This document shows, piece after piece, positions 8,961 through 60,603 of a stretch of 64,000 bases of DNA. Both the position numbers and the translations under genes were made by a program. Every line of letters begins with the position of its first letter. Within the stretch, counting starts at the first letter, position 1. The stretch comes from Lysobacterales bacterium (lineage in GTDB: Bacteria; Pseudomonadota; Gammaproteobacteria; Xanthomonadales; BPKI01). The stretch spans positions 1,858,566 through 1,922,565 of the forward strand of contig BPKI01000001.1 of NCBI GenBank assembly GCA_026005055.1, written 5' to 3'. Below the pieces are notes generated by a model. It worked only from the letters and a program-made list of their open reading frames with translations. It made no database searches and was not told the DNA's origin.

Positions 8961-9667
8961 TGTTCGATGCCACGAGCCTGCTCGTTCTGAGCACGCTGGC
9001 CTTTTCGCTGCTCGCCTGGCAGAGCCCAGCCTTGCTCGAAGCCGCGATCTTCTCCATGCGGCGCTTGCATCAGGGTCAATGGTGGCGAGTCCTGAGCTAC
9101 GGCTTCGTCCACGCCGACGCTGCCCATCTGCTGTTCAATCTCCTGGCCCTCTATAGCTTCGGGCGGGCGCTCGAGCCGGTCTTCGACCGGACGTTCCCGC
9201 TCGGCGGATTCGCTGGCTTTTACCTGAGCGCCCTGCCCCTCGCCGTGCTGCCCGTGCTGATCGGTCGTTGGCAGGTGGCCGAATATCGCAGCCTCGGCGC
9301 CTCCGGCGCCGTGAGCGCGGTGATCTTCGCCTATGTGCTGCTCGATCCGCGAGGACTGCTCCTGGTCTTCCTCGTGCCGATGCCGGCGTTCCTTTTTGCC
9401 GTCCTTTTCCTCGCCTACTCGGTTTGGGCGGCGAATGCCCGGCGCGACCGCATCGCCCACGAAGTCCATCTGGCCGGCGCCGCCTATGGTCTTGCCTGCG
9501 CGGCCCTGTTCGTGCCGAATGCGCTCTCCGGCTTCCTCGATCGCCTGCTCGGCCCGTCGCCGGGAAATCACATCGTCTGCGTGGGACGGTCGGAAGTGAG
9601 CAGCCCGGCGAGGATCGATTCGATCTTGGTCTTCACCGCCTCCCCGTCCGGCGTGTCGTTGAACTGA
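8957..9667 (+). CDS. Rhomboid-family intramembrane serine protease
   Basis: Polytopic inner-membrane protein of 236 residues. YGFVHADAAHLLFNLLALYSFG (48-69) is the conserved His/Asn-rich helix. The catalytic Ser is probably S116 in GASGA, and the catalytic His H171 in the HEVHLAGAAYG helix. Two consecutive ATGs at 8957 and 8960 could serve, the first in an ATGA overlap with sufE. The rhomboid core ends near residue 195. The last ~33 residues run antisense over the 3' end of pilZ and have no family support. Confidence 0.88.
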   Translation: MMFDATSLLVLSTLAFSLLAWQSPALLEAAIFSMRRLHQGQWWRVLSYGFVHADAAHLLFNLLALYSFGRALEPVFDRTFPLGGFAGFYLSALPLAVLPVLIGRWQVAEYRSLGASGAVSAVIFAYVLLDPRGLLLVFLVPMPAFLFAVLFLAYSVWAANARRDRIAHEVHLAGAAYGLACAALFVPNALSGFLDRLLGPSPGNHIVCVGRSEVSSPARIDSILVFTASPSGVSLN

Positions 9668-33921: not shown

Positions 33922-35811
33922 TCACTCGCCGATGTGGATCAGGCGCAATCGCCGATCGCTTTGCGCCATCGCCGCGCGCACGCGATCGAGTTCCGGCAGG
34001 TAGTCGGACGCGAGCCAAAGGCCGGGATCGGGCCTCGGCCAGCCCTGCTTGGGGATCGCGCGCCAACGCGCCCAGAGCTCGGGCAAGAGACCGCGGTTGC
34101 GCGGCTCCGTGAGCGGCCTCATCCAGTCGAGCTCGGTCAGCGGCGGAAGCAAAACGGCCAGTTCCGGATCGCGCCCGGCGATCTCGAGGAGGCTTCGTCG
34201 CGCGAAGCGGCGGCTCGAGGGATAAGGATCCTCCAAGGCCAGCAACAGGTGCGGGACCAGCATCCGATTGGCCTCGCGGGAGCGATATCCCGCATAGCGG
34301 CCGGCCGCATCGAGTGCCACCGCCCGCCTGAGCGGATCGCCTCGATGAAGCGCCCGCACCAGCTCCGCTTCCGCCGCATCCTTTGCCACGATTCCTTCGA
34401 TAAGCGCGGCTTGCGCCCACTCAGGACTGCGCTCGAGATGGCAGAGATTGCAGGCGTTCGGGCGATCGGCCTCGGACTGCGCCTCGGGCGAGGGATTTTC
34501 GATGCGGTGGCTTTTGTGAATCTCCATCACCCCATAGACGATCCGCGGCATGTGACAGGCATAACAGTCCTCGGCCACGGGCGCGGCATGACGGGCATGC
34601 GCTACGGCTTCCTTTGCCTCGCGCGCATGGCATCCGGCGCAGGCGGCTTTGCTGCGCATCACCGGCTCGATCATCCCCAAGGGATCGCCGCCGTGCATCG
34701 CATGGCAACCGATGCAGCTCAGCCCCGCTTCGAGGTGCGGGCCGGAGAGCAGCCATCCCTGGTACTCGTAGGCAGTCAGCCGCGGCGTGCGATCGGGCCA
34801 GAAGCGAAGCGCGAAGAGGTCCGAGCCCGGCAGGCCCGGGACCGGCGTCTCCGGCCACAGCGGCTGCGCGTGCTGGTGGAGATCCTCCCCTGGTCGGTAG
34901 GTGGGTCCTTCCGTGAGCCAGCGCTCGAGCGCCTGAGGCCCCGGAGGCAGGCGCTGCCCGTGGCACTGGCCACAAACCTGGGCGCTGCGTAACGGATCGA
35001 GCCGGGCCGGATTGACGATGGTCGGGTCGGCCCAGCCGAAGATACGGAAGGCGAGCCGGCGCAGGGGATCGCGATGGTGTTCGATGTGGCGTGCGCCTGG
35101 AGCATGGCAGGCCTCGCAGGCGATGCCGAGCTCGGCGACTCGCGATTCGTACTCGGTGAGGCTTGCGGTCTCCACGACTTCGCCCGCGGCCAGGCGCCGC
35201 CCGAGCGCCTCGAGGTTGCGCACCCCAGGCTTGGGCCCGGTGTTGTGGCAAAAGATGCAGTTTTGCTCCCAGACGTTGAGATGCGCATCGAAATCCTGGC
35301 CATCTGGCCCGAGGAAGGCCGCATTGAGATGAACGAAGCGCCCTTCCTCGCGATGCCAGAGCCAATGAAGGCGGTAGTGATTGGGCGAGCGGGCCGGGTC
35401 ATGCCCCAGATACTGCTGGTAACGCCGCGAGCCGACGGTGCGCACGACCGGGATCCGATCGAGGACGCGGCCCGTCTCTGGATCGAGGTACTCGAAGAAA
35501 TAGCGCTCGCCCTCGCGCACGGGCCGCGTGCGTACGCCCTGGAAATCGAGCAGCCGTCCGTCGAAGGGGGCGATGACGCTTTCTTGCCCGGCCTGCTGCG
35601 TCATCGTGCGATGAAAGGTCACGAACCAGGTGGCGTGCCGCTCGCGGTGACAGGAGAAGCAGCTTTCCGAGCCCACGAACTCAAGCGACGCGAAATCGGG
35701 CCGATCCTCGGGCTTCGGGGCGTATCCCAAAGCCAGGCCGAGCAAGACGCCTGCCACCGCAATGAAGGCGGCGGCAAGCACCAGGGCGATGACCGGAAGG
35801 CGAGTCGCCAT
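33922..35811 (-). CDS. Octaheme c-type cytochrome with HEAT-like C-terminus
   Basis: 629 residues from ATG 35811 (ATG 35823 also possible). An N-terminal hydrophobic segment (about 6-29) exports or anchors it. Eight CxxCH haem sites start near residues 51, 185, 232, 280, 366, 391, 416 and 454. The last ~150 residues lack haem sites and look like HEAT/armadillo helices (RRAVALDAAGRYAGY, ALEDPYPSSRRFARRSLLEIAG). This is a periplasmic multihaem electron-transfer or oxidoreductase protein of the cytochrome c554/NrfA-like superfamily. Substrate unknown. Divergent from the subtilase. Confidence 0.85.
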   Translation of the reverse strand: MATRLPVIALVLAAAFIAVAGVLLGLALGYAPKPEDRPDFASLEFVGSESCFSCHRERHATWFVTFHRTMTQQAGQESVIAPFDGRLLDFQGVRTRPVREGERYFFEYLDPETGRVLDRIPVVRTVGSRRYQQYLGHDPARSPNHYRLHWLWHREEGRFVHLNAAFLGPDGQDFDAHLNVWEQNCIFCHNTGPKPGVRNLEALGRRLAAGEVVETASLTEYESRVAELGIACEACHAPGARHIEHHRDPLRRLAFRIFGWADPTIVNPARLDPLRSAQVCGQCHGQRLPPGPQALERWLTEGPTYRPGEDLHQHAQPLWPETPVPGLPGSDLFALRFWPDRTPRLTAYEYQGWLLSGPHLEAGLSCIGCHAMHGGDPLGMIEPVMRSKAACAGCHAREAKEAVAHARHAAPVAEDCYACHMPRIVYGVMEIHKSHRIENPSPEAQSEADRPNACNLCHLERSPEWAQAALIEGIVAKDAAEAELVRALHRGDPLRRAVALDAAGRYAGYRSREANRMLVPHLLLALEDPYPSSRRFARRSLLEIAGRDPELAVLLPPLTELDWMRPLTEPRNRGLLPELWARWRAIPKQGWPRPDPGLWLASDYLPELDRVRAAMAQSDRRLRLIHIGE

Positions 35812-35936
35812 GTTGCAAAGCATCTTGACGCAAGCCGCTCTTCCTTGCGATACGCTACGCAACGTTTGCGACCGAACGCCCGCGCACGCACCGGCGTCGG
35901 TGGCCGTCCCGCCCACCGCTCTCGCTCCATTCGCCC

Positions 35937-38222
35937 ATGAAGTCGAGTCTCTTTCTCCTCGCCCTCTTCGCCGCGACTGCTGTCGCCGCCGAGCGCAGCA
36001 CCTACCTGATCGAGTTCAAGGACGAAGGTCTCATCCAATACCGAGGCGGCATTCCCGGACTGCGGGCGGTTTCCCCGCTGGTCACCGGTCAGCGTCTCGA
36101 TCCGAACGATCCTTCGGTTCAGGCCTTCCTCGCCTTCGCCGAACAGCGCCTCTCCCAACGCATCCAAGAAATCGCACAAGCGATCGGTCGCAGCCCCGAG
36201 GTGCGCGGGCGCTATACCGTCACCCAGATCGGCGCGGCGCTGGCGCTCTCCCCGGCGGAAGCGGAGACGGTCGCACGATTGGGCAGCGTCAAGCACATCA
36301 TGCCCGAGCCGATCGAGGTCCCCCAGACCTACAATAGCCCGCAGTTCATCGGCGCGAACTCGATTTGGAACGGTAGCGCCACGCCCGGCAACCTCCCGAA
36401 TCAGGGCCAGGGCGTGCGCATCGGCATCGCCGACAGCGGTTTGCACACGCTGAGCCATCCCTCGTTCTCGGACATGGGCGCGGAATGCGGTTATTCCACG
36501 CCCACCCCGAAAGTGCTCCAGCGCTGGGATTGCCTGAGCGGCACCTGCTCGCTTCTGACCAGCGACCCGACCGGCTCGGCGAACTATGACCATGGGGTCC
36601 ATGTCGCCGGCACCGCCGCCGGACGGCCCGTACCGGCCAATACCGGCACGCCGCCGCCTCTTTACAACATCGCCGGCGTCGCGCCCTGTGCGCAGCTCAT
36701 CACTTACCGGGTCTGCGATTCCAACTGCCCGGGCGCTGCCATCCTCGCCGCCATTCAGCGGATGCCCCTTGACAACGTCCAGGTCGCGAACTTTTCGCTC
36801 GGTCCGACGGGCCCGGCGCAGTTCTCGCCATGGGATCCGGCCGAGGGAAGCCTGCGCTATCTGCCGCTGACCCAGGCCGGGATTTACGTTGCGGTGGCTG
36901 CGGGCAACACACGCCCTGCCGCGCAGGGCGGCCCGGAGAACCCCACCGGCAACGTCAAGAGTACCGGCCCGTGGATCACCACCGTGGCCAACATCACCGA
37001 TAACGTGCGCGCGAGCGGAACCGCGACCGTGCAGATTCTCGGCCCCGGCAGCGTCCCTCCCGCGCTTCAGAACGTGGTGGTGAACCCCACCTCGACCTCG
37101 AGCAATCTCTCGAGCAGCCTGCTCAACACGCCCCTCACCCACTATGAGGCGAACGTGCGCGGCTGCACTTTGAACGGCGGTTTCCCATCCGGATTTTTCA
37201 CGGGCCGGATCGCCCTGATCGAACGCGGCGACTGCACCTTCGCCGAGAAGGCCAACAATGCGGCCGCGGCGGGGGCGCTCGCGGTGCTGATCTACAACAA
37301 CACGACGGGGACCTTCAATCCCGTGCTCTCCGGTGTGACCGTGCCGGTGTTCGCCATGCTCCAGGTCGATGGGCAGGCGATTCGCAACTTCGTCAATGCC
37401 GCGGGCCAGCCGGCCGACAGCAACCTCCTCATCGACAACCTGGTCTATGGCAACGTCCTCGCCGATTCGAGTCTGACCGGTCCCGCCCAGTTCACCGACG
37501 GTATCACCAAGCCCGACATCGCCGCTCCGGGCACGGCGATCTATGCCGCCACTTTCTCCAATCCCGGGTACGGCAATCTCACGGGCACCTCGATGGCGTC
37601 CCCGCACATCGCCGGCGCCGCGGCACTCATCCGCGCCATCCATCCCTCCTGGACGCCGGCCGAGGTCAAGTCGGCGCTGATGCTCACCGCCTACAATCCC
37701 GGTTGGAAGCCCAATACCACCACGCCCTGGGACGTGGACGACGTCGGTAGCGGTCGAGTCGATCTGACCAAGGCGGCCCTCTCCGGCCTGGTCATGGACA
37801 TCGATCCGACGATCTACAACACGCCGGCGATCAATCCACTCAATGGTGGCAACCCCACCCTGCTCAACCTCCCCTCGATGCGCACGAGGAACAATCAGGT
37901 GTGCAAGCCGGCCTGCACCTGGACGCGCACCGTGCGCAACACCTTGAGCACGCCGACCACTTGGAATGCCGGCGGCAATCCCCCGAACGGCATGAGCCTG
38001 ATCGTCCAGCCGGCGAGCTTCTCCTTCAGCGGCAATCCGAACGAGACGCAGACGCTGACGATCACCGTCGTGGCCAACAACGACGTGATCTTCAGCGGCT
38101 TCCGCTTTGGCGATGTGATCCTCACCGAAGCGGGCAACCAGGCGCCGCCGGCGCGGATGACGATTGCGGTCGGCGCAGCCAACGGCCGCGATCTCTTCGC
38201 CGACGGCTTCGAGAGCCCGTGA
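35937..38222 (+). CDS. Secreted subtilisin-like serine protease (S8) with PA insert
   Basis: 761 residues. Signal peptide (1-18, ending AVAA). A propeptide-like region runs to about 130. The S8 triad is Asp166 (IADSG), His219 (HGVHVAGT) and Ser552 (GTSMASPHIAG). A protease-associated (PA) domain is inserted near 380-470 (GRIALIERGDCTFAEKANNAAAAGALAVLIYNN). A beta-rich C-terminal domain follows. The protein ends LFADGFESP, a tail shared with two other exported proteins in the window. The strong hairpin behind it closes the unit. Confidence 0.93.
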   Translation: MKSSLFLLALFAATAVAAERSTYLIEFKDEGLIQYRGGIPGLRAVSPLVTGQRLDPNDPSVQAFLAFAEQRLSQRIQEIAQAIGRSPEVRGRYTVTQIGAALALSPAEAETVARLGSVKHIMPEPIEVPQTYNSPQFIGANSIWNGSATPGNLPNQGQGVRIGIADSGLHTLSHPSFSDMGAECGYSTPTPKVLQRWDCLSGTCSLLTSDPTGSANYDHGVHVAGTAAGRPVPANTGTPPPLYNIAGVAPCAQLITYRVCDSNCPGAAILAAIQRMPLDNVQVANFSLGPTGPAQFSPWDPAEGSLRYLPLTQAGIYVAVAAGNTRPAAQGGPENPTGNVKSTGPWITTVANITDNVRASGTATVQILGPGSVPPALQNVVVNPTSTSSNLSSSLLNTPLTHYEANVRGCTLNGGFPSGFFTGRIALIERGDCTFAEKANNAAAAGALAVLIYNNTTGTFNPVLSGVTVPVFAMLQVDGQAIRNFVNAAGQPADSNLLIDNLVYGNVLADSSLTGPAQFTDGITKPDIAAPGTAIYAATFSNPGYGNLTGTSMASPHIAGAAALIRAIHPSWTPAEVKSALMLTAYNPGWKPNTTTPWDVDDVGSGRVDLTKAALSGLVMDIDPTIYNTPAINPLNGGNPTLLNLPSMRTRNNQVCKPACTWTRTVRNTLSTPTTWNAGGNPPNGMSLIVQPASFSFSGNPNETQTLTITVVANNDVIFSGFRFGDVILTEAGNQAPPARMTIAVGAANGRDLFADGFESP

Positions 38223-38244
38223 TCGGAATCTGAGCGAGGACGCG

Positions 38245-38278
38245 GGAGAGGGGCCGCACGCGGAGGCGGCCCCTCTCC
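38245..38278. terminator. Bidirectional hairpin between convergent secreted-protein genes
   Basis: A perfect 13-base GC-rich stem with an eight-base loop, 22 bases after the subtilase stop and in the 221-base gap before the convergent delta-60 gene. No T-run on either side, so termination would rely on stem strength. The rest of this gap shows nothing else I can name. Confidence 0.6.
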
Positions 38279-38443
38279 ATGGATGCGCCCGAGGAACGAA
38301 CTCTCTCCCAAGCGAGCAACCGACGTGCCCGGCCGGCGTCGGACCCGTGCGTTAGGCTGACTTGAGGCGCGCCCTCATCCCACGACGGAAGGAGCGCCAC
38401 CACTGGCGTGGCTGCGAGACTCTTCCACGTTGGCGCTTCGACC

Positions 38444-39832
38444 TTATTGGGACGTCTCGAAGCCGTCCTTGAACAGTCCTCGGCCCAGGCGCGCCACCGC
38501 GAAATCGAAGTCCAGGTTTTGCCAACGTCGCCAGCCAGCAATCACCGTGCGCCCGCCCGCCTCCCGGAGAATGCCGATAGCACCGCCCGCGGGGCCTGGG
38601 CTGCTCATCTGATGGGGGAAATCGATGATGAGCGGAACGCCACCGTTGAAGGCGGGATCGAGCTCGAGCAGATCCGGATTCGCCGGATTACTCAGACGCA
38701 GACCGAGCACACAGAAACGGGGCGTGACAGCCGAGCCGCAGGTCGCCGCGAGCACGATACGGTTGCCATCGAATCCGGGCTGGTAGGCGGCCGCGGTCCC
38801 GTAAACACCCGTCGGCAGGCTCGCGGTCAGGCAGCGCACGCGCCGATTCGGGCCTCCGGCGGCATCGTCCACGCTGGCGAACCAGGCGCGCCAGACGCCG
38901 CCGACATCCGATCCACCGAACATCTTGAGGGTCCCGCGCATGGTCAGCAGGGAAATCGGTCGATGGTCAATCCCGGTCCCACAGCCGTTTTCCCCGCCAC
39001 TGCTCTGCACGTCCTGCAGTCCGAGCGACCCGAAAGCGGTGTCATTGGAGAGCGCCGAGGTCAGCCGCCAGAAAACCGCAGTTCCGGCGGCGAGCGTCTG
39101 GTCGCGGTCAACCGCCCACACCACCCCGTCGTCGGCGACCGCGCGACCGGCGACGATCCGCGCCGGAACCGAGTAGGACGCGCCCGGTACGTTGACGATG
39201 TCGTTCCCGTTCGCATCCAGCCGGCGGAACGCTGGACGCTCGATATGCGTCGGTCCGCTTCCGTCGTTATCGACCGATCCTCCGACGAGGATCTCCCCGC
39301 TGCCGCGCACGACGAGAGCGAAGGCGCGCTCTTGCGCTGCGGTCACCGTGGTGAAAGTGATGTTGCGCACCCCGCCGCCGCTGAAGGAGATGTCGAGCGC
39401 ACCGCCCGCGGTGAGGCGCGCCAGCCGGCCATCCTCGCTACCTGCCGTTCCGCAAGCGGTGGTATTCCCGAGGATGAGGATCCGGCCTGAGGCATCCAGC
39501 GCCGCATCGGTGACCTCGTTCATGCACAGGTCGAGGTGAAGCTTCCCCCCGCTCCCGAAGCTCGGATCGAGGATCCCCTCCGAGTCGAAACGGGCGATCG
39601 CCACCTCCACGGCGCTCGCCGTAGCCGCGGTCCCGATCAGAAGGTAACGACCATCGTTGCGCCGCAGCACACGCATCGCCACATCGGTGAGATTGCCCCC
39701 GAGGTCGAAGCTCGCCGTCGCGCGGCCCGACGCAGAGCCGAAATCGCCATCGAGCGCATCGTCCTCCGCGGCGAAGGCAGAATGAGCAAAGAGGATGGTG
39801 AAGGGAAGGAGCAAGGCATGGGAGGGGCGCAT
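38444..39832 (-). CDS. Secreted delta-60 repeat protein
   Basis: 462 residues from ATG 39832; the N-terminus is a signal peptide (cut near AFA-AEDD). Several delta-60-like repeats are visible (ILDPSFGSGGKLHLDL, ALDISFSGGGVRNIT, ELDPAFNGGVPLIIDF), suggesting a beta-propeller-like secreted protein. The C-terminus LFKDGFETSQ repeats the tail seen on the subtilase. The frame is open upstream to 40030, but that part lacks a signal peptide and overlaps fumC. Function unknown. Confidence 0.82.
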   Translation of the reverse strand: MRPSHALLLPFTILFAHSAFAAEDDALDGDFGSASGRATASFDLGGNLTDVAMRVLRRNDGRYLLIGTAATASAVEVAIARFDSEGILDPSFGSGGKLHLDLCMNEVTDAALDASGRILILGNTTACGTAGSEDGRLARLTAGGALDISFSGGGVRNITFTTVTAAQERAFALVVRGSGEILVGGSVDNDGSGPTHIERPAFRRLDANGNDIVNVPGASYSVPARIVAGRAVADDGVVWAVDRDQTLAAGTAVFWRLTSALSNDTAFGSLGLQDVQSSGGENGCGTGIDHRPISLLTMRGTLKMFGGSDVGGVWRAWFASVDDAAGGPNRRVRCLTASLPTGVYGTAAAYQPGFDGNRIVLAATCGSAVTPRFCVLGLRLSNPANPDLLELDPAFNGGVPLIIDFPHQMSSPGPAGGAIGILREAGGRTVIAGWRRWQNLDFDFAVARLGRGLFKDGFETSQ

Positions 39833-58595: not shown

Positions 58596-58668
58596 AAGCC
58601 CGCCAGCCATCCCCTCCCGCCGCGAGTCCCCTCCCCTCCCGGCCCGGCTGGCGGGCTTCTTCTTACTC
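58596..58668 (+). terminator. Terminator of the phasin gene
   Basis: A perfect 13-base GC-rich stem (58596-58608 with 58646-58658) with a 37-base Pro-like C-rich loop, followed by TCTTCTTACT. The stem overlaps nothing coding but ends five bases before the convergent gene's stop. Confidence 0.65.
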
Positions 58669-60603
58669 GAAGCCGTCGCGGAAGACGCGCGTGATGCTCG
58701 CCGGCCCGGCGATCATACCGGAGAGCTGGGTGCCGCTGTCGGGCTCGATGAGCGTCAGGGGATAGAGCGCGCTCTCCTCCAGCGGCTGATCGGTGAGGAA
58801 ACCAAAGCGGTAAAGGGTGCCCCACAAGAGATCGGTTCCCGGGGATCCGGAAAACACCAAGGCGCCGCCGTCGCGCATCGCCGTCCAGTCATTCGCCGGC
58901 TGGGTGTCGAGATCGGCAAAGGCATCGGGCGGAATCCACACCGCCAACCCCGCATCGAGTCCGAGCCTGAACTCGCGCAGCCCGCGCTGCGCGAGCACGC
59001 GCAAGTTCGGGGGCGTACCGCTGGTCTGGCTTACCGCGAAGTCGAGGTTCTGCACGGCATAATCGAAACGGTAACAGGGTGGGCTCAGCCCGGATGCAGG
59101 CGGACAAGCGGCGAGCGGCTGGACGCGCACCGCCACTTTCACCCGCCCGTGCGGGCTCGTGATCTCGCGGTTGCGATGGGGATAAAGGTTCGGATCCACC
59201 CAGCGGTCGATCACCGGCCCGCGCGTCATCGGCCCGCTCACCGTCGGGCTCCAAGCATAGCCGTCGAACTCGATCGTCACCGGCACGTGACCCATCGTGT
59301 TGTAGATGTCCTGATCGTCCTGGATCACGTACCAACCCTCGGCGAAGAACTGCGCGCCGGCAGCCGAAAGCTGCGACTCGCGCACGATCAGCCGATGGTC
59401 GTAAGGACCGTTGGGGTTGGGATGGGTCTGGCTGCCGGTGCAGCCGGGATCGAAGATCGAGCCGCAACGGCCCCATTGGCCGGTGAAGGGGATGAGCTCA
59501 CGCCGGGGGCCGAGCTCGGGACCGTAGTCGTTGCTCGACTGCGAGTAGATGTCGTAGCAGGCGCGGCCGAGGATGTTGCCGCCGCCCGCCCCGCAAGCGC
59601 CCGGGGCGCAGTACCAATTGATGGTGTAGAAGGCGTGCTTGAGCCCCGACGCCCCGATCTGCTCGAGCCGCCCATCGAGGATCCGATAGAGGTTCCACAC
59701 GAGGTAGGGGTGCTGATCGTTGCCCGGGTAGGGGTAGGGATGAGGACTGGTCTGGAACTTCCTGTACCACGGCACGTCGGCGGTGTGCGGGGTGTCGCCG
59801 TTGCGAAGTGCCGCCCCCGGCGCGAAGACGACTACACCGTCATCGCCGCCCGGGCCGTCGCAAGGGCCCGAGGCCGCGGAATGGCGGCAGCGCATCACGT
59901 GCCAACTGAGGCTTTCGATGAGCACGTCCGTGCGATAGGTCCCGCCGCTCGGATGCGGCATGCCGTGAAAATTGGGGGAGGCACACTTGGCGATCAGGGG
60001 TTCTTCCCCCGGCCCCTGCACGATCGGCATGCGAAGTCGGAGTTCGCCCACGGTCTTGCCCGAAAGCGCTGCGACGCCCAAGCGCTCGGCCAGCCGCGGC
60101 TCCACGATCAGATCGGCCGTGTGGATCATAAGCCGCCGCCGCGCCTCCTCGATGCCGATCATCGGATGGGTGACACGGAGCACGCCCTCGCCCGCCTCGT
60201 CCACCAGTTGAAGATCCGCTGTCGAGCCATCTTTCGGCCGCAGTTGCAGCGACGAGAGGCGGATCCGGCCCGCGGGACCCTCGAACACCAGCCATCCTCG
60301 GGCCTCCAGAGCGCCGCCTGAGAGGCGCTGAAGCCCTTCCCGACTGACCCCCAGCTCGAGCGCCGTCGAGGAAAGGATGGGAAACAGCGCGAAGGAGGGC
60401 TCGCCGCTGTCCACCGGCGTCTTGGGAAGGCGGAGCCGAACACCGTAGAGGCCAAGCACATCGTGGTTGAAACGAAGCCTCAGCTCCCCGCCTCGCGCCG
60501 CCCAAGAGACCGGAGCAGTGACGGTGTCGGCCTCCGTCCCTCTCGAGGGCTCGCCCCAAAGAAGAACGCCGACCGCGAGCAAGAGCAACCACGATGGGCG
60601 CAT
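58663..60603 (-). CDS. Large secreted protein of unknown family with VFRDGFE tail
   Basis: 646 residues. Signal peptide (1-22, ending SRGTEA). I recognise no enzyme family. Seen: an N-terminal ~150-residue beta-rich part, then Cys-rich stretches (HVMRCRHSAASGPCDGPGGDD, NWYCAPGACGAGG, GRCGSIFDPGCTGSQ, LAACPPASGLSPPCYRF), probably disulfide-bonded, with aromatic/Gly-rich segments near 280-330. The last residues ITRVFRDGFE match the tails of the subtilase and the delta-60 protein. Convergent with the phasin. Confidence 0.75.
   Translation of the reverse strand: MRPSWLLLLAVGVLLWGEPSRGTEADTVTAPVSWAARGGELRLRFNHDVLGLYGVRLRLPKTPVDSGEPSFALFPILSSTALELGVSREGLQRLSGGALEARGWLVFEGPAGRIRLSSLQLRPKDGSTADLQLVDEAGEGVLRVTHPMIGIEEARRRLMIHTADLIVEPRLAERLGVAALSGKTVGELRLRMPIVQGPGEEPLIAKCASPNFHGMPHPSGGTYRTDVLIESLSWHVMRCRHSAASGPCDGPGGDDGVVVFAPGAALRNGDTPHTADVPWYRKFQTSPHPYPYPGNDQHPYLVWNLYRILDGRLEQIGASGLKHAFYTINWYCAPGACGAGGGNILGRACYDIYSQSSNDYGPELGPRRELIPFTGQWGRCGSIFDPGCTGSQTHPNPNGPYDHRLIVRESQLSAAGAQFFAEGWYVIQDDQDIYNTMGHVPVTIEFDGYAWSPTVSGPMTRGPVIDRWVDPNLYPHRNREITSPHGRVKVAVRVQPLAACPPASGLSPPCYRFDYAVQNLDFAVSQTSGTPPNLRVLAQRGLREFRLGLDAGLAVWIPPDAFADLDTQPANDWTAMRDGGALVFSGSPGTDLLWGTLYRFGFLTDQPLEESALYPLTLIEPDSGTQLSGMIAGPASITRVFRDGFE

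Follow-up and report, generated by a model that had tools for sequence, protein, structure and literature searches.

The choice of cargo by the type II secretion system (T2SS) is a long-standing open question, and type II secretion has been considered to have no address label. According to recent papers, no conserved or linear signal is known for T2SS cargo (PMC12369372, PMC11981180), a linear universal signal is lacking (PMC12369372), and the signals are regarded as structural, each peculiar to one protein (PMC7949064). In the closest described cases, secretion of VesB needs the PDZ domain of EpsC (EpsC-PDZ), and PelI binds to OutC-PDZ through a disordered Fn3 loop (PMC12369372, PMC7949064). 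Here, a six-residue motif, F-x-D-G-F-E, is described at the C-terminus of three exported proteins encoded in a 64,000-nucleotide stretch of DNA (the window, G000:C1:1858566-1922565) from the 2,441,650-bp, single-contig genome of a Lysobacterales bacterium (G000). Judging from comparative genomics, this motif, hereafter the tag, is probably an address label read by a second T2SS of this bacterium, designated T2SS-A.

Three tagged proteins in one window

The first-pass annotation of the window had pointed to a common tail on three exported proteins, and all three tails were found again, as follows (window coordinates):

35937..38222, + strand: exported subtilase with the tag, 761 aa; signal peptide, S8, PA and fn3
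38193..38219, + strand: tag L-FADGFE-SP, the subtilase C-terminus; tail ...RDLFADGFESP, stop codon at 38220-38222
38444..39832, - strand: exported delta-60 / DUF5122 beta-propeller protein with the tag, 462 aa; convergent with the subtilase gene
38447..38476, - strand: tag L-FKDGFE-TSQ, the C-terminus of the delta-60 protein; tail ...RGLFKDGFETSQ, then stop
58663..60603, - strand: exported 646-aa protein of no known family, with the tag; no Pfam match
58666..58686, - strand: tag V-FRDGFE, the extreme C-terminus of the 646-aa protein; tail ...TRVFRDGFE, then stop

Beyond these three tails, F-x-D-G-F-E was found in no frame of the window. A signal-peptide-like segment starts each protein, and the three appeared unrelated, as had been proposed: the Pfam domains were S8, PA and fn3 in the subtilase and DUF5122/delta-60 in the second protein, and the 646-aa protein had no match, so that no common domain accounts for the tails. 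Neither a transmembrane helix nor a basic cluster was observed in the tail sequences, and no NCBIfam or Pfam model covers them, in agreement with the earlier view that no named sorting domain with this pattern was known. In the AlphaFold2 model of the subtilase, whose mean predicted local distance difference test (pLDDT) is only 65, the final fn3 strand stops at residue 746 and residues 748-761 have a pLDDT below 50; the tail beyond this strand is predicted to be disordered. The neighbour of the tagged subtilase gene, at 33922-35916 (- strand), encodes an untagged, membrane-anchored protein of 664 aa that has many CxxCH haem motifs.

The tag across the source genome

For the search in DNA, the motif was back-translated into an 18-base pattern, TTYNNNGAYGGNTTYGAR, and the reversed pattern was used as control. 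The whole source genome (2.44 Mb) yielded 19 matches and none for the control. With the mean control count of 0.46 per genome over the order as expectation, the Poisson probability of 19 matches is ~2e-24, and chance is therefore excluded. Most matches (16/19) lay 0-4 codons upstream of a stop codon, as in IFADGFEGP, VFSDGFESP and IFRDGFE, each of which ends the protein, and another was located directly after a signal peptide, at 105709 (MSRFRPWRALGAAATLLVPPSLSAQP-IFADGFE-). The other two look accidental, one falling in a PEPCK-like enzyme and one in a probable antisense frame. A relaxed pattern added four F-x-N-G-F-E tails (FSNGFEGP, FWNGFE, FRNGFES and FRNGFE, all followed by stop) and a second copy after a signal peptide (SP), SP-IFASGFE, whose carrier was read by eye as DUF1800-like. 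It is estimated that the ~20 C-terminal tags correspond to roughly one percent of the genes of this genome.

It could be argued that such tails are a chance or mutational artefact, arising from a repeat at the DNA level, from biased codon use or from mobile elements at the ends of genes, given that TTCGCCGACGGCTTCGAG is a favoured DNA form in the GC-rich genomes. This explanation has a negligible probability: synonymous codons and residue x are free to vary, AT-rich genomes specify this peptide by other DNA (TTTAAAGATGGATTTGAATAA in G107), the reversed controls are near zero, and the chance matches outside the order lie in tiny open reading frames (ORFs). A DNA repeat or codon artefact was ruled out by this conservation at the protein level.

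Form and position of the tag

The core of the tag is F-x-[D/N]-[G or R]-F-E, preceded by I, L or V, and D is frequent at position -3, three residues ahead of the first F (62/85 and 15/24). The consensus of 86 tagged proteins from the source genome and its relatives is D-x-I-F-x-D-G-F-E, in which the two F are the only invariant columns; the pattern used to retrieve the named tag set fixed both an I ahead of F and a stop following E, which left just residue x and the -3 preference free in that set. A further variant at position 4 was observed in G107 (family f8), where F-x-[D/N]-S-F-[E/D] tails occur alongside a majority of DGFE/NGFE. A beta-hairpin reading of the motif, based on a D/N-G turn, is weakened by the R variant, in which a type I' turn is unlikely.

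The C-terminal placement initially claimed for the tag holds for most copies but not for all, since others were found after signal peptides, between domains (L068), in an apparent fn3 loop (L262) and in tandem (L103, ..DLIFKNGFESDIIFKDGFE before the stop; L175; L256). Together with the predicted disorder of the subtilase tail, these positions are more readily reconciled with a peptide epitope than with a cleavage signal. The alternative, that a protease such as a non-membrane sortase-like enzyme cuts the tag as a processing signal, and that the link of the tag to T2SS-A comes from shared ecology, would suit the mostly C-terminal location, and the invariant acidic and aromatic residues could form a protease site. 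It is nevertheless very improbable, as the tails have no transmembrane helix or basic cluster and 0 to ~13 trailing residues, copies also occur after signal peptides and inside domains, where cutting makes little sense, and rhombosortase (TIGR03902) was over its cut-off in 0/20 tag-rich genomes. By this last result, rhombosortase was also rejected as the machine. The window itself encodes a protein of the rhomboid family, at 9044-9502 on the + strand (G000:C1:1867609-1868067), that matched rhombosortase weakly (53.6 bits vs a cut-off of 84); this score points to an ordinary rhomboid protease and not to a rhombosortase.

Proteins that carry the tag

Tagged proteins are enriched in signal peptides. 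With a home-made heuristic for signal peptides, and ORF starts that are heuristic too, a signal peptide was called in 77/89 tagged ORFs vs 254/666 untagged ORFs of the same stretches (by set, 10/12 vs 31/120, 13/16 vs 28/92 and 54/61 vs 195/454). This enrichment had been set beforehand as a check on the tag; the opposite outcome, a motif no more common at exported C-termini than elsewhere, was not seen.

The 86 tagged proteins match 72 different Pfam families, which include beta-helix, FG-GAP, glucose/sorbosone dehydrogenase, S8, MauG-type cytochrome peroxidase, M28, endonuclease I and reprolysin. Nineteen of the 86 match choice-of-anchor Q, an NCBI family name for domains occurring with various C-terminal anchors, a few match rhombotarget A, and others delta-60 or a VesB-like Ig domain. 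No CTERM, sorting or tail model was among the Pfam and NCBIfam families listed for these proteins, and a single homologous C-terminal domain shared by the carriers, which could have explained the tails, was not seen.

The neighbours of tagged genes (L119, L163, L171, L172, L186 and others) often encode an extracytoplasmic function (ECF)-like sigma factor together with a Ser/Thr kinase-TPR protein, or else a regulator of the winged-helix/TPR type, all families being read by eye; this is suggestive of exported cargo under shared regulation. A sorting machine was sought among these neighbours and rejected, because the recurrent ones are regulators and no sorting enzyme was among them.

Distribution over genomes

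The pattern and its control were counted in 300 genomes of the same order as the source, in which the tag count ranged from 0 to 77 per genome, against the control mean given above. A scan of named taxa returned real tails in Marinicella, Dokdonella, Pseudofulvimonas, Tahibacter, Chiayiivirga and many metagenome-assembled genomes (MAGs) of Lysobacterales, and its matches in Bacteroidota or Bacillota lay in tiny ORFs. Outside the order, 271 gammaproteobacterial genomes had the stop-adjacent form at background level, with 0-2 matches per genome, nearly all in tiny ORFs. The tag is restricted to the order of the source. Literature searches for the letters of the tag, for any named tail and for linear motifs of T2SSs found no description.

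A second type II secretion system in tag-rich genomes

Two GspD secretins over the family cut-off were found in 20/20 tag-rich genomes vs 3/20 tag-poor ones, the other 17/20 having one GspD or none. In a GspD tree, the 14 extra secretins of tag-rich genomes that were placed in it formed one clade (support 99/96), located far from the Xps-like secretin that tag-rich and tag-poor genomes have alike; the only tag-poor secretins beside this clade were two distant ones, from G022 and G060. The T2SS-A loci comprise gspC-D-E(-F), adjoining rho-trxA-rhlB in many genomes, and gspG-N, adjoining bioA-rsmE and cysQ/nudE, and the gene order of the other system, T2SS-B, is EFGHIJKLMND. Three T2SS-A components of G000 were located as follows (genome coordinates):

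565254-566114: GspC-A, profile match
566211-567902: GspD-A, secretin match
2095510-2095917, - strand: GspG-A, GspG match

In G000, GspF was not seen beside gspE. GspC-A contains a transmembrane helix, an HR domain and a PDZ domain, the last being akin to the PDZ domains of EpsC, PulC and OutC (Pfam T2SSC and PDZ, and PDB matches), and GspD-A matches the Pfam Secretin and N0 domains. T2SS-A is a canonical (PDZ-type) T2SS, with HR and PDZ in GspC, N0 in GspD, GspE/F and GspG-N. T2SS-B of G000 belongs to the Xps-like group; the Xps-type GspC of Xanthomonas lacks the PDZ fold (PMC11981180). A second canonical GspG was present in 16/16 T2SS-A genomes vs 0/16 others.

Two individual genomes stood out. 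The complete genome G018 (f8/g16) has no GspG match at all and a tag count of 4 (control 1); tags and T2SS-A are otherwise abundant in its family. In G090, which has 65 tags, the GspC-A gene (G090:C2:796941-797849; L287) contains an in-frame TGA, and the open frame of GspD beside it is unusually long; the candidate explanations are sequencing error, recoding and decay.

Co-occurrence of the tag and T2SS-A

A GspC-A profile was applied to the same 300 genomes, 270 of which were compared after the genus using the R variant described below had been left out. At least six tags, the threshold for a tag-rich genome in this comparison, were found in 79/91 genomes with GspC-A vs 8/179 without it (Fisher p 2.7e-45), the median being 18 tags in the former and 1 in the latter. 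The same held inside family f2 (2/3 with GspC-A vs 0/75 without) and inside family f12 (11/12 vs 0/65), and the combined p was ~1e-4 when both were collapsed to genera. In the genus left out (f9/g9), GspC-A was detected in 26/30 genomes. Thus, the co-occurrence with a membrane or protease family anticipated in the first-pass annotation was observed for the second canonical T2SS, rather than for a sortase-like enzyme.

Such a pattern could also result if the tag and T2SS-A were both ancestral in the order and had been lost together in the same lineages, with no functional link between them. The conserved neighbourhoods of T2SS-A (rho-trxA-rhlB; bioA-rsmE / cysQ-nudE) are those predicted by vertical inheritance, and the independent joint losses are few. 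On the other hand, the absence of both recurs in most of f2, f12 and f7 and in f8/g16 (G018, without a GspG match), the genus-level tests within f2 and f12 remain at p ~1e-4, and loss of a tag from dozens of unrelated proteins of a proteome would be surprising unless its reader had gone too. Joint loss alone is very improbable.

A proteome-wide switch from G to R

The pattern F-x-D-G-F-E first proposed applies to most genomes, but its fourth position changes from G to R across whole proteomes in two genera. In genus g9 of family f9, DGFE is almost missing and DRFE is abundant, with 94 matches in G036 (control 2), 51 in G008 and 53 in G123; the tails of G036, such as IFRDRFEAP and LFEDRFEFLGEN, both before a stop, are carried by unrelated exported proteins. 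Genus g61 likewise uses DRFE (48 matches in G138, and 3-9 in sister genera). Since dozens of unrelated proteins switched the same residue together, one common trans-acting reader is indicated. Within f9, the comparison of R-users with G-users yielded candidate columns in the PDZ region of GspC, at G036 positions 270-271, 282, 284 and 286; the R-users are apparently one lineage, and the discriminating columns of GspC and GspD are leads only. A mixed genome, G162 (f9/g65), has 35 DGFE and 13 DRFE together with R-type residues at most of these columns, and is a possible intermediate of the specificity switch.

Proposed function of the tag

The proposal that the tail is a tag recognized by a machine for secretion, processing or surface attachment is supported by its C-terminal enrichment on exported proteins and by its co-occurrence with T2SS-A. 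Among the more specific readings, we lean towards a short linear export tag that would mark dozens of unrelated periplasmic proteins for T2SS-A, with the PDZ domain of GspC and/or GspD as receptor. The traits of type II substrates were observed, with an N-terminal signal peptide in 77/89 carriers and GspD in all tag-rich genomes tested. The cargo would cross the inner membrane via its N-terminal signal peptide and fold in the periplasm, and the tag, lying on a flexible tail, a linker or a loop, would stay exposed. Binding of the tag by a periplasmic component of T2SS-A, with the GspC PDZ domain and/or the GspD N-domains as the most plausible candidates, would then recruit the cargo for passage through the outer membrane. 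What is observed is the tag, its enrichment on exported proteins, its positions, its restriction to the order, its co-occurrence with T2SS-A and the G/R switch; we infer that secretion of the carriers depends on both the tag and T2SS-A, and which component is the receptor.

Several observations weigh against this export reading. Canonical T2SSs elsewhere in the class work without the tag, and a tag with up to ~5 trailing residues is not a classical C-terminal PDZ ligand. The homologs of the subtilase are 32-45% identical to it and mostly untagged; all eight closed ORFs from genomes lacking T2SS-A (8/8) end without the tag, but so do several homologs in T2SS-A genomes, including the closest ones, which indicates that the tag is optional, not obligatory, for this family. 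Relatedness inflates the genome counts, which represent at least four family-level joint absences and not 270 independent events, and in f7 alone and f8 alone the association is not significant. Three f7 genomes (G062, G096 and G170) have 7-15 pattern matches and no GspC-A; each gave one match in the stop-adjacent search, and the G096 tail, DVIFMNNFE before the stop, is possibly a real variant tag in a genome without GspC-A. Of the eight genomes with at least six tags and no GspC-A, five are fragmented or less complete MAGs. Several genomes have GspC-A and few tags, among them small g39 genomes with a few genuine ones. Finally, the analysis covered a single complete reference genome and a sample of its relatives, and the components profiled across genomes were GspD, GspG, GspC and rhombosortase only.

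The main rival is that the tag acts after secretion, as a surface-retention or anchoring signal. T2SS-A would export the carriers by other features, a surface partner (protein, glycan or matrix) would hold the tag, and the tag would track T2SS-A because only this system delivers such cargo. The carrier families overlap surface-anchored ones elsewhere (choice-of-anchor Q in 19/86, others rhombotarget A, delta-60 or VesB-like Ig), terminal, exposed and tandem tags suit a surface ligand, and in Wenzhouxiangella AB-CW3, whose medium had no detected proteolytic activity, the proteases were inferred by the authors to be anchored to the outer membrane (PMC7691419). Surface retention is nonetheless rather unlikely: no candidate surface receptor was found, the neighbours of tagged genes being regulators without a shared machine, many carriers are enzymes (endonuclease I, M28 and S8 peptidases), and the distribution is already explained by T2SS-A alone.

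If the export reading is correct, a destination could be named for hundreds of unannotated exported proteins of the order, and the tag could serve as a secretion handle in engineering. The chances are even that the tag is the first linear and portable T2SS signal, a six-residue epitope (F-x-D-G-F-E; F-x-D-R-F-E in one lineage) read by the PDZ-bearing GspC and/or GspD of a dedicated T2SS, added convergently to dozens of unrelated proteins in each genome and co-evolving with its reader. The tag can be counted in genomes, a natural G/R switch is available and some lineages have neither the tag nor the machine, which makes the question of cargo choice directly testable, and the tag provides a ready list of predicted T2SS-A cargo.

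Comparison with known systems

The C-terminal signal of type I secretion does not describe these proteins, which have N-terminal signal peptides, nor does the outer-membrane beta-signal (BAM), as the carriers are enzymes, propellers and beta-helices, not barrels, and the tail ends in E or beyond. PEP-CTERM/exosortase, LPXTG/sortase and MYXO-CTERM/myxosortase resemble the present case in having one short signature on many unrelated exported proteins, presumably with one reading machine. They differ from it in that the tag tails have no membrane helix or basic cluster and match none of those models; the LPXTG motif is absent from the tails, the NCBIfam scan gave no CTERM model match, and the combination of PEP motif, transmembrane helix and basic cluster was not found in them.

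A closer likeness is seen with GlyGly-CTERM/rhombosortase (TIGR03902), which also involves a C-terminal tag on exported surface-type proteins of overlapping families (rhombotarget A, VesB-like Ig), and some of whose carriers in Vibrio (VesB) use a canonical T2SS. Unlike GlyGly-CTERM, the F-x-D-G-F-E tag has no Gly-rich stretch, transmembrane helix or basic cluster and also occurs away from the C-terminus. The sorting domains of the type IX secretion system (T9SS) of Bacteroidota are likewise C-terminal addresses for passage through the outer membrane. These T9SS domains, however, are folded, span tens of residues and belong to another phylum, whereas the tag has six residues and accompanies a T2SS; no T9SS sorting-domain model was among the listed matches of the tagged proteins, and T9SS genes were not searched for.

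The nearest parallels are Fn3 loop 3 of PelI/Pel3 (OutC/OutD) and the Ig-fold of VesB (EpsC-PDZ), in which an exposed flexible peptide or domain on a folded periplasmic cargo is read by GspC-PDZ and/or GspD, and one copy of the tag likewise lies in an Fn3 loop. Those elements are structural and belong to one protein each, whereas the tag is a linear motif found on dozens of unrelated proteins per genome.

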